Below are positions 36,301-38,866 of a stretch of 39,209 nucleotides of DNA, piece by piece (position 1 is the first letter of the stretch; each line of letters begins with the position of its first letter). The position numbers and the translations under genes were made by a program. The DNA lies in contig NZ_KB905954.1 in NCBI RefSeq assembly GCF_000381125.1, forward strand, positions 1 through 39,209. Direction: 5' to 3'. Below the pieces are notes generated by a model. The model was not told the DNA's origin and searched no databases. It saw nothing but the letters and a program-made list of their open reading frames with translations. This DNA is from Caldimonas manganoxidans ATCC BAA-369. GTDB lineage: Bacteria > Pseudomonadota > Gammaproteobacteria > Burkholderiales > Burkholderiaceae_C.

Positions 36301-36438
36301 CGCTTCCGCTTCACCAGTGCCTTGCCGACCCAGTTGCTGAAGTCGCTGCTGCCGAGTCTGTGGCCGGGGATCGAGAGTCGCCCTTGTGGGCTGCCCGAAC
36401 AACGACCGCGGCCTGCCGATGCCGCACCTGCGGGTTGA
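33310..36438 (+). CDS. Large penicillin-binding protein, transglycosylase-transpeptidase
   Basis: A 1042-residue protein. A membrane anchor (about 20-36) is followed by a GT51 transglycosylase domain (about 150-300) with candidate catalytic Glu170 (YIENRE), GGST at 211-214 and 'LLDYLNTVPLAAQ'. The transpeptidase domain has SxxK (Ser519-Thr-Ala-Lys522), SxN (Ser625-Val-Asn627) and KTG (Lys946). The motif gaps are long: about 100 residues from SxxK to SxN and about 320 from SxN to KTG, more than usual for class A PBPs. The protein should build periplasmic peptidoglycan. The function of the insertions is unknown. It is transcribed divergently from the rhomboid gene and is likely a single-gene unit. 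Confidence 0.87.
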   Translation: MSARAVQRLRFVGLGPWGWRLAVAGLLGLVVLVAWRGVTREMQSSRVQARWLSDLATQLHVQVLPGRSPAIRFPADGPYDVRLGYHGLPHLIERLSARGFEVQAQARWSPKLIELHDWGLFTIYPEKSQAGLQVLDCRGDTLAASLHPQRVYPDVSSIPRVLADSLLYIENRELLDPTRPYLNPAIEWDRLGKALLEQARRSVDPDQPAAGGSTLATQIEKYRHSPQGRTDSAGEKLRQMASASLRAYLGGELTLARRQQILLDYLNTVPLAAQVGVGEVHGLGDGLWAWYGRDFDEVNRLLTSLMDGEIRPAPPTAGQARAYREVLLREQALAYKQALSLLVAQRRPSHYLAERAPGLRALTDAHLRLLARDGVIPTTLRDAALPLPLELLPQQTAASAGRFVERKAASAARMRLASLLGMSRSYDLDRLDLVAHSTLDAQAQQAVTEALSRLSTPEGVRAAGLVGPRLLREGEDPALLRYSFTLFESDGRVSRVRVQTDNFDQPFDLNDGARLDMGSTAKLRTLVSYLEVVAQLHERWAGLDAAALAAQAPAASDTLARWVHDHLRSTDDRRLDTLLEAAMERRYSASPAEAFFTGGGLHRFGNFDPEDDHRTMSVREAFARSVNLVFIRLMRDVVQHLVHQRPDFDPRLFEDPTHPARQGFLERFADQEGRQFIARFHAALRERPAEEVERLLLQGREPSVPRLAALYYGLEPEGDLAGLARFIARHRGGEVLPEAALQRLHQQAAPGRLSLSERAHRVGVHPLQLWVAARLRSDPAASLREMQEAEAAAQARREAYDWLLRTRHKDAQDQRIGQVLEQAAFTELHRRWRRLGYPFETLTPSYASALGASGDRPAALAELMGVIANDGLRLPTVRIEGLRFGVGTPYETHLALRPPAPERVLPVEVAQVVRRALLEVVAQGTARRLLGSVRRADGRMVELGGKTGTGDHRYTVHGRDGRVLASQVLNRSASFAFVLGERHHGVLMVYVAGPDAERFRFTSALPTQLLKSLLPSLWPGIESRPCGLPEQRPRPADAAPAG

Positions 36439-36543: not shown

Positions 36544-36630
36544 TGGTGCCCGGAGCCGGAATCGAACCGGCACGGTGTTGCCACCGGCAGATTTTGAGTC
36601 TGCTGCGTCTACCAATTTCGCCACCCGGGC
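36544..36630 (-). tRNA. tRNA-Leu (anticodon CAA)
   Basis: Read on the minus strand, this 87-nt gene has acceptor arms GCCCGGG and TCCGGGC, and the leucine-type long variable arm. The anticodon stem GCAGA/TCTGC encloses the loop CTCAAAA, giving anticodon CAA for UUG codons. The T-arm GCCGG...CCGGC carries TTCGATT. A discriminator A and encoded CCA end the gene at 36547-36544. No clear terminator follows downstream. Confidence 0.95.
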
Positions 36631-36672
36631 GGGTGAAAGCAAGCCAAGATTATGGCATGTCCGGCGCAGGTT

Positions 36673-36686
36673 TGGCAGGCCTGCCA
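36673..36686. promoter_or_regulatory. Perfect 14-bp palindrome upstream of cysM
   Basis: TGGCAGGCCTGCCA lies between the tRNA-Leu and cysM, 27 nt before the cysM start and 43 nt beyond the tRNA. The divergent gap of 82 nt must hold both promoters. It could be a repressor operator. No regulator gene for it is visible in the window. Confidence 0.4.
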
Positions 36687-36712: not shown

Positions 36713-37618
36713 ATGCCCACGTACAAGACCCTGGAAGACGCCATCGGCCGCACGCCCTTGGTGAGATTGCAGCGCCTGCCTGGCGCCGACAACGAACGCC
36801 GCGGCAATGTGATCCTCGGCAAGCTCGAAGGCAACAACCCGGCCGGCTCGGTGAAGGACCGCCCGGCCATCAGCATGATCCGGCGAGCCGAGGAGCGGGG
36901 CCAGATCCGGCCCGGCGATACGCTGATCGAGGCCACCTCGGGCAACACCGGCATCGCGCTGGCGATGGCTGCGGCCATCCGCGGCTACCGCATGCTGCTC
37001 ATCATGCCCGAGGATCTGTCCGTCGAGCGGGCGCAGACGATGAAAGCTTTCGGCGCCGAGCTCATCCTCACGCCCAAGGCCGGCGGCATGGAGTACGCCC
37101 GCGATCTGGCCGAGCAAATGCAGCGCGAGGGCAAGGGCGTGGTGCTCGACCAATTCGCCAATGCCGACAATCCGCGCATCCACTACGAGACCACCGGCCC
37201 GGAGATTTGGGAAGACACCGAAGGCACCATCACGCATTTCGTCAGTGCCATGGGCACCACCGGCACCATCACGGGGGTGTCGCGCTACCTGAAAGAAAAG
37301 AACCCGCAGGTGCGCATCATCGGCGCGCAGCCCAGCGAGGGCTCTCGCATCCCGGGCATTCGCAAGTGGCCACCAGAGTACCTGCCCAAGATCTATGACC
37401 CCCGCGCGGTGGACGAACTGATCTACGTGAGCCAGGCCGACGCCGAGGACATGGCCCGACGCCTGGCCCGAGAAGAGGGCTTGTTCGCCGGCATTTCGGC
37501 CGCGGGGGCATGCTGGGCGGCGCTGCAGATCGCGCAAAACGTCGAGAACGCCACCATCGTGTTCGTGGTGTGCGACCGCGGTGATCGCTACCTCTCCACC
37601 GGCGTCTTTCCGGCCTGA
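36713..37618 (+). CDS. cysM: Cysteine synthase B CysM
   Basis: A 301-residue PLP enzyme of the beta-family. The Schiff-base Lys48 lies in 'EGNNPAGSVKDRPA', the substrate loop is 'TSGNTGIALAMAA', and the phosphate-binding glycine stretch is 'MGTTGTITG'. The 'EGNNPAGSVKDR' form is the CysM type rather than CysK. It makes cysteine from O-acetylserine and sulfide or thiosulfate. AGGAGAG precedes ATG 36713. Its 3' end overlaps the convergent trmB-like gene by 31 nt. The surroundings give no further sulfur genes apart from the TSUP permease 22 kb away. Confidence 0.94.
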   Translation: MPTYKTLEDAIGRTPLVRLQRLPGADNERRGNVILGKLEGNNPAGSVKDRPAISMIRRAEERGQIRPGDTLIEATSGNTGIALAMAAAIRGYRMLLIMPEDLSVERAQTMKAFGAELILTPKAGGMEYARDLAEQMQREGKGVVLDQFANADNPRIHYETTGPEIWEDTEGTITHFVSAMGTTGTITGVSRYLKEKNPQVRIIGAQPSEGSRIPGIRKWPPEYLPKIYDPRAVDELIYVSQADAEDMARRLAREEGLFAGISAAGACWAALQIAQNVENATIVFVVCDRGDRYLSTGVFPA

Positions 37619-38325
37619 GTCTCGGCGCAGACGACCCGCCACAGCGTGTGGCCGGCATCGCGGTACTTGCGCTCGAAAGGCGAGACCGGGTCGGCCAGCT
37701 CGGCAGGCCCTGGCATGTCCAGCAGGGCCTGTCGTCCGGCCAGGTGCAACGCGTGCGCGAACTCTTGCGCGTAGATGGCCCAGTTGCTGCGCAGCTCGAC
37801 GCGACCGCCCAGCGCCAGTAAAGCCGGCAAGCGCGGATGCGTGCCCCAGCGGCGCATCACATGCTCGGCCTTGGGCCAGGGGTTGGGGTAGAGCAAATAG
37901 TGGTGCTCCACGCGCCAGCCGGCCTGTGCCATCAAGGCCCACACATCGCTCACGTCGGCGCGCAGCAGCAGCAGATTGGGCGGCCATGCGCACTGCAGTT
38001 TGCGTTGTCCGCGCTCCAGGCGCTCGGCCGATTGGTCGATGCCCACCACCAGCGCTTGCGGATGGCGACGCGCCAGACGGGCGCTGCTTTCGCCGGTGCC
38101 GCAGGCGCTGTCCAGCACCAAGGGGCGGCCCTCCCGGCTGCGGGCGATGGTCTCGAAAGCCGCCACGCTGTACGGGGCTGGCGGCTTGCGAAACGGCTGG
38201 CTCAGATGACGGCGCACCAGCTCATCCAGCCGCGGGTGGGGCCCGTGTTGATTGCTGCGCACCGGACGCGACAGCGTCCGGCCGGCGACGGCGCTACGAT
38301 GGGGTTCCACGATTCGATGGTGCAC
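37588..38325 (-). CDS. trmB: TrmB-like tRNA (guanine-N7)-methyltransferase
   Basis: A SAM-dependent methyltransferase of up to 245 residues. The SAM-site strand is 'LVLDSACGTGESSARLA', and the TrmB signature PxPWPK appears as 'YPNPWPKAEH'. Family members methylate G46 of tRNA; this one carries 'SACGTG' in place of the usual 'EIGxG', so it may be a paralogue, and the symbol is tentative. The start is uncertain: GTG 38325 would put the two divergent start codons 2 nt apart; GTG at 38310 or 38262 (before 'RSNQHGPHPRL') are alternatives, the last favoured by family resemblance. The 3' end overlaps cysM by 31 nt. Confidence 0.82.
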   Translation of the reverse strand: MHHRIVEPHRSAVAGRTLSRPVRSNQHGPHPRLDELVRRHLSQPFRKPPAPYSVAAFETIARSREGRPLVLDSACGTGESSARLARRHPQALVVGIDQSAERLERGQRKLQCAWPPNLLLLRADVSDVWALMAQAGWRVEHHYLLYPNPWPKAEHVMRRWGTHPRLPALLALGGRVELRSNWAIYAQEFAHALHLAGRQALLDMPGPAELADPVSPFERKYRDAGHTLWRVVCAETQAGKTPVER

Positions 38326-38326
38326 G

Positions 38327-38866
38327 ATGACGACCCAAGCCTACAAATTCTGCCCTCAGTGTGCTGGCCCCTTGGCTTGGCAGACGCAGCGGGAAGACGG
38401 TGGCGAGAAATCGCGTCTGCGCTGCGCACGGTGCGGCTTCACGCACTGGAACAATCCCACCCCGGTGTTGGCCGCGGTGATCGAGCTGGCCGACCGCGGC
38501 GGGCAGCTGCTGCTGGCACGCAACGCCGCTTGGCCGGGTCGCTTTTTCGGGCTGATCACCGGCTTCATGGAGGCCGGCGAAAGCCCGCAAGAGGGGGTGA
38601 TTCGAGAAGTGGCCGAAGAAACGGGCCTGACGGTCACCCAGTTGTCCATCATCGGCGCCTACGACTTCCAGCGCATGAACCAAGTCATCATCGCCTACCA
38701 CGCCGTGGCTCAGGGCGAGATCGTGTTGTCGCCGGAGTTGGCCGAATACAAGCTGTTGGCCCCCGAGTCGGTCCGATGCTGGCCGGCAGGTACCGGTCAG
38801 GCCTTGGCCGATTGGCTGCGCTCACGCGGGTATCCCGTGCGCTGGATGGACGACCGGCCACGGTGA
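38327..38866 (+). CDS. Nudix hydrolase with zinc ribbon (NudC-like)
   Basis: A 179-residue protein. A zinc-ribbon with CPQC and CARC pairs (residues about 9-12 and 33-36) precedes a Nudix domain. The box reads 'GFMEAGESPQEGVIREVAEETGL', matching GX5EX7REUXEEXGU. NudC-type enzymes with this zinc ribbon cleave NADH and NAD-capped RNA, but they usually have a further N-terminal domain that this protein lacks. A NUDIX pyrophosphatase for a nucleotide or nucleotide-sugar is the safe reading. Start 38327 gives MTTQAYKFCPQC; it lies 2 nt from the divergent methyltransferase's most upstream start. Confidence 0.85.
   Translation: MTTQAYKFCPQCAGPLAWQTQREDGGEKSRLRCARCGFTHWNNPTPVLAAVIELADRGGQLLLARNAAWPGRFFGLITGFMEAGESPQEGVIREVAEETGLTVTQLSIIGAYDFQRMNQVIIAYHAVAQGEIVLSPELAEYKLLAPESVRCWPAGTGQALADWLRSRGYPVRWMDDRPR

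Follow-up and report, generated by a model that had tools for sequence, protein, structure and literature searches.

The window, a stretch of 39,209 nucleotides from one contig of Caldimonas manganoxidans ATCC BAA-369, holds cysM, a TrmB-like methyltransferase gene that we call TrmBL, and a Nudix hydrolase gene (nudix), in that order. The cysM gene (36713-37618, plus strand) encodes the 301-amino acid cysteine synthase B. It begins with ATG and ends with TGA (37616-37618), and its product scored above the cut-offs of the NCBIfam equivalogs NF008735 (527.2 bits; cut-off 413) and TIGR01138 (447.5 bits; cut-off 394.2). A longer version of the reading frame that starts at 36386 is false, since that frame crosses the gene for tRNA-Leu (CAA), located upstream of cysM at 36544-36630 on the minus strand, the same strand as TrmBL; the true start is the ATG at 36713. 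A promoter-like site with a TG before its −10 element lies at 36649-36678 on the minus strand and is positioned to serve the tRNA-Leu (CAA) gene. All nine genomes of the genus contain cysM.

TrmBL runs on the minus strand from its TAG stop codon at 37588-37590 to at most 38325. Its start is uncertain, with GTG codons at 38325, 38310 and 38262 as candidates. The product was recognized as a SAM-dependent methyltransferase by the Pfam model Methyltransf_4 (55.1 bits against a gathering cut-off of 24). Structure prediction gave a TrmB-like fold with a mean pLDDT of 87.8, residues 1-20 being of low confidence. The nine best Foldseek matches to this model in the PDB were TrmB structures or the Streptococcus pneumoniae structure 1yzh, a protein that bears the name tRNA (guanine-N(7)-)-methyltransferase; the 16S rRNA methyltransferase KamB ranked tenth, and other methyltransferases followed close behind the TrmB structures. 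TrmBL thus has in common with TrmB, the tRNA (guanine-46-N7)-methyltransferase, the Methyltransf_4 domain and the best fold matches. Unlike TrmB, it does not reach the cut-off of the TrmB equivalog TIGR00091 (43.6 versus 112.65 bits) and is only 15-21% identical to the matched structures. By domain and predicted fold it is a TrmB relative. The genome holds a second match to TrmBL at C1:186241-186804 (25% identity), which is presumably its usual TrmB. Outside the overlap described below, the TrmBL codons gave dN/dS values of 0.29-0.51 in all 21 pairs of genomes that carry the gene, at dS values of 0.56-1.14 that are partly saturated. Because of these ratios, this part of TrmBL looks like a working gene under purifying selection.

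TrmBL is present in seven of the nine genomes of the genus and absent from G005 and G007. The six other carriers have TrmBL proteins with about 58-66% identity to the one encoded in the window. In a sample of the family in which six candidates were scored per genome, a TrmBL match at E ≤ 1e-20 was found in four of 399 genomes, all of this genus. Distant relatives with about 43-48% identity were detected in G042 (locus L009), which belongs to another family of the order and was one of 60 genomes compared, and on seven contigs from a scatter of other bacteria, including Salinicola. Association of TrmBL with cysM outside the genus found no support: none of these eight distant loci (L009, L041-L047) showed a CysM match in the flanks covered, which were 1.5 kb for L009, at most 5 kb on each side for most others and less on one or both sides for L041 and L046. 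The wider TrmBL group is TrmB-related and patchily distributed across distant bacteria, and an alignment of 15 of its sequences contains 31 invariant columns.

The 3′ coding ends of cysM and TrmBL share exactly 31 nt, positions 37588-37618, on opposite strands, as the earlier note had described; the coordinates of both stop codons agree with it. On the plus strand the overlap consists of the last base of a CysM Arg codon followed by the codons for YLSTGVFPA and the stop, and on the minus strand of the TrmBL codons for QAGKTPVER, the stop and one further base. The third codon positions of the two genes face each other. The TAG stop of TrmBL, the complement of CTA, pairs with the final base of the Arg codon and the TA of the adjacent Tyr codon (CGC-TAC). 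Both partners look like real genes, as judged from the equivalog matches of CysM and from the Pfam match and dN/dS values of TrmBL, and each of the seven carriers shows the same 31-nt overlap of their 3′ coding ends. A local sequencing or assembly artefact is not supported, given the identical overlap in six other genomes. Because exactly 31 nt recurs in every genome with the gene pair, the comparison of sequences indicates that the overlap is no local accident.

In sharing their 3′ coding ends on opposite strands, cysM and TrmBL resemble the tail-to-tail overlapping gene pairs of prokaryotes. We read their register as phase (123:213) in the notation of PMC2174442, a reading that is our own; that source gives this phase as 18% of 1218 convergent overlaps of at least 5 nt. 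Extension of a 3′ end to the next stop inside the neighbouring gene is a described route to overlap (PMC2478687). The pair differs from convergent pairs in general in that the length of its overlap can be traced to the Arg-Tyr codons of CysM and is constant in the seven carriers. We conclude that the two genes do overlap, and that this overlap is conserved and of an ordinary kind.

The origin of this length lies in the CysM protein. The C-terminus RYLSTGVFPA, followed by TGA, was identical in all 38 cysM genes compared, which came from the seven carriers, the two non-carriers of the genus and 29 other genomes of other genera, the latter being the best-scoring 29, and not a random draw, of 113 genomes besides G000 with a match at E ≤ 1e-100 in a search of 120. 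Because third positions face each other, bases one and two of a TrmBL codon in the overlap are determined by bases two and one, respectively, of the CysM codon opposite. When read in the TrmBL register, the end of CysM yields the pattern [QH]AG[KN]TPV[ED][RK], which fitted 38 of 38 loci; Lys in place of Arg at the end of the tail was encountered in three of the 29 other genera. What follows depends on the Arg codon: if it ends in C or T, an antisense stop arises opposite Arg-Tyr, and otherwise the register reads Tyr at this position. The stop was present in all seven carriers, in both genus non-carriers and in 23 of the 29 other genera, so that it is latent in 25 of the 31 cysM genes that lack a TrmBL neighbour. 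The other two antisense registers first meet a stop after at least 56 nt, in one of them often past all of cysM, except for two of the 38 loci with a stop at 24 or 27 nt. The TrmBL frame runs into cysM without having met a stop, and the linker just ahead of the tail varies in length and sequence among the carriers. These sequences suggest that a gene that enters cysM in this register would usually end after 31 nt, whatever its function. The length and the sequence of the overlap are explained because the CysM end dictates both the TrmBL tail and its stop in this frame, and a constant 31 nt need not mean selection, since the CysM protein sequence sets it. We therefore regard the overlap, with a probability of about 0.85, as an ordinary convergent overlap that owes its size to the CysM sequence, with TrmBL as an inserted gene, its tail passive and no regulation visible.

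The gene order beyond TrmBL bears on how it arrived. The nudix gene (38327-38866, plus strand) encodes a Nudix hydrolase with an N-terminal zinc ribbon (Pfam NUDIX and Zn_ribbon_Nudix). At 20 of the 29 loci from other genera, cysM is followed by a co-directional Nudix gene, with gaps, extrapolated from the alignment, of −13 to +34 nt at 19 loci and of 112 nt at one; no nudix was found within 1.5 kb behind cysM at the remaining nine. The two genus non-carriers have the same order, with nudix 14 nt (G005) and about 40 nt (G007) after cysM. In a tree of cysM and nudix built from 19 of the 38 cysM loci, namely all nine of the genus and ten hand-picked from the 29 others, the non-carriers were nested among the TrmBL carriers: G005 was sister to the window's genome with a support of 100, and G007 to G008 with a support of only 63. 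The simplest account is probably one insertion of TrmBL between cysM and nudix, antisense to both, followed by two losses; separate gains or exchange are possible. TrmBL and nudix are divergent (38262-38348), and in the window 1 to 64 nt separate their possible start codons. At L003, L004, L006 and L008, candidate ATG starts of the two genes fall within one common CATG.

From these comparisons a course of events can be proposed. A TrmB-related methyltransferase gene would have been inserted antisense between cysM and nudix in an ancestor of the genus. Its frame would have entered cysM in the register seen today, with third codon positions facing each other, and the end of CysM would then have forced the tail and stop of TrmBL upon it opposite Arg-Tyr, provided that the Arg codon ended in C or T. 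Separated from cysM, nudix probably has its own promoter that carries the TASSAT motif described below. Both transcripts would most likely end by Rho or by collision of polymerases in or just past the overlap.

The arrangement could be read differently, with cysM and nudix still joined in a noncontiguous operon, that is, in one transcript that runs antisense through all of TrmBL, so that the mRNAs can exclude each other. Its appeal lies in the cysM-nudix order of 20 of the 29 other-genus loci and of both genus non-carriers, and operons of this kind have been described in Staphylococcus aureus; the example in PMC7154746 is menE-menC-MW1733-ytkD-MW1731, where, as here, a gene on the opposite strand lies between otherwise co-directional genes. 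Moreover, from the cysM stop as far as nudix, the cysM strand carries no terminator-like site in any of the seven carriers. This absence says little, because at none of the seven loci did the number of terminator-like sites exceed the mean of shuffled sequences by more than one standard deviation. At L004 and L007 a weak 5-pair hairpin is located within cysM on the cysM strand, 63-78 nt before the cysM end, which speaks against the long transcript, with counts at or below the shuffle means. Unlike the S. aureus operon, the one considered here would be hypothetical, and nudix may have its own −10 motif.

That motif is TACGAT at 38295-38300 on the plus strand, a −10-like match to TASSAT upstream of nudix and a putative promoter element. 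TASSAT occurred within 150 nt upstream of the codons for a conserved FCP of nudix in seven of seven carriers, at a distance of 47-62 nt from these codons, compared to none of the two genus non-carriers and none of 19 loci from other genera (19 of the 20 with nudix; L057 was dropped for lack of an anchor), a contrast that is no fair test because the corresponding stretch of non-carriers is mostly cysM coding sequence. When the carriers' stretches were shuffled 2000 times with preservation of base composition only, a mean of 0.31 and a maximum of three of the seven had a match; the motif had been spotted by eye before it was counted, and the carriers share descent. No −35 element was evident near TASSAT, and a scan with a sigma-70-type consensus found no site there in the seven carrier loci. 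The occurrence of the motif in seven of seven carriers versus none of 21 non-carriers suggests that nudix has a promoter of its own, which counts against the noncontiguous operon; that nudix gained such a putative promoter is suggestive only. On balance, the single cysM-nudix transcript appears unlikely, and it is doubtful that the separated genes still form an operon that transcription of TrmBL would switch down.

The earlier note had pointed out that the two genes leave no room for a terminator, and a scan of the window indeed detected nothing resembling an intrinsic terminator at either gene end or close by. RNA folds across the overlap were no better than those of shuffled sequences on either strand (z scores of 0.62 and −0.19), and at Rfam gathering thresholds the only match in the window was the tRNA, so that no RNA family was recognized where the genes overlap. 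The window scan, the folds and the scans of the relatives thus gave no support to a special RNA structure or terminator there. Rho, whose sites such scans do not show, can end transcripts without an intergenic gap. In E. coli, head-on collision of RNA polymerases is reported as a prevalent ending of convergent transcription (PMC13082048, a preprint). Among 58 convergent overlaps of the same organism, one gene uses a Rho-independent terminator in 19 (PMC2174442), and these terminators must sit in coding sequence because the two genes overlap. Long antisense transcripts are therefore no necessary result of a missing gap between two genes; the earlier note's statement that the transcripts must run into each other was not supported, since Rho, collision (PMC13082048) or terminators inside the genes (PMC2174442) can end them.

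The same note had raised antisense control, in which colliding transcripts or overlapping RNAs would tune cysM and TrmBL against each other. That the window scan revealed no site like an intrinsic terminator around the overlap would suit this proposal, and the excludon idea, as outlined in PMC7154746, includes convergent genes with long overlapping 3′ UTRs and no terminator between them. Against it, coding constraint alone explains the length and sequence of the overlap, RNA folding is unremarkable on either strand, and TrmBL is missing from two of the nine genomes of the genus while cysM is in all nine.

Silent sites are a further point against it, since they lack clear extra conservation. 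Synonymous codon identity in the carriers, which are seven related genomes and closer kin than the others, was 0.638 both in the overlap and in the adjacent 49 codons, and 0.709 in more upstream parts of cysM; the respective values for the other 31 loci were 0.471, 0.602 and 0.679. The excess of the carriers in the overlap, 0.167, was the second largest of 24 cysM windows, and the largest, 0.238, was found in a nearby window (0.834 versus 0.596). The silent sites of the overlap show no clear extra constraint, and weak constraint is possible. The Arg codon ends in a pyrimidine in all seven carriers compared to 25 of the 31 others (six of 31 lack it), which could be chance or weak selection for the stop in these few genomes of shared descent. 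As the overlap follows from CysM, and as silent sites and folds are unremarkable, antisense control of cysM and TrmBL is possible but unsupported, and we consider it quite unlikely. No regulatory role of the overlap is visible in the sequence.

The TrmBL tail also fits this picture. The last strand of the structural model extends to residue 233, and the mean pLDDT decreases to 75 for residues 231-240 and to 55 for residues 241-245, so the tail is predicted to be probably a passive, unstructured appendix after the last strand. The K/N and E/D differences among the tails track silent changes in cysM. That the tail is instead selected and functional, which would make the overlap a coding constraint of two genes, is extremely improbable in spite of the near invariance of QAG[KN]TPV[ED]R in the seven carriers, because the identical pattern emerges from all 31 cysM genes that lack an adjoining TrmBL and the conserved tail hence needs no TrmBL; in addition, the tail varies where cysM is silently free, lies past the last strand in a low-confidence prediction and is different in the more distant TrmBL relatives.

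The locus thus provides a worked case in which the length of an overlap is perfectly conserved without visible selection, the antisense stop being fixed by the partner protein, and it cautions against taking a conserved overlap length for evidence of regulation. Since only some members of the genus carry TrmBL, they also offer natural pairs of genomes for measuring how an antisense insert affects transcription.

Beyond nudix, a short reading frame at the contig end (38930-39209) had no Pfam match, and we take it to resemble the start of an IS5-type transposase. The contig breaks off within a repeat here, which has 28 matches in the genome including itself, 15 of at least 145 bases and 13 of about 30. 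At least five of the 28 are located at the start of a contig.
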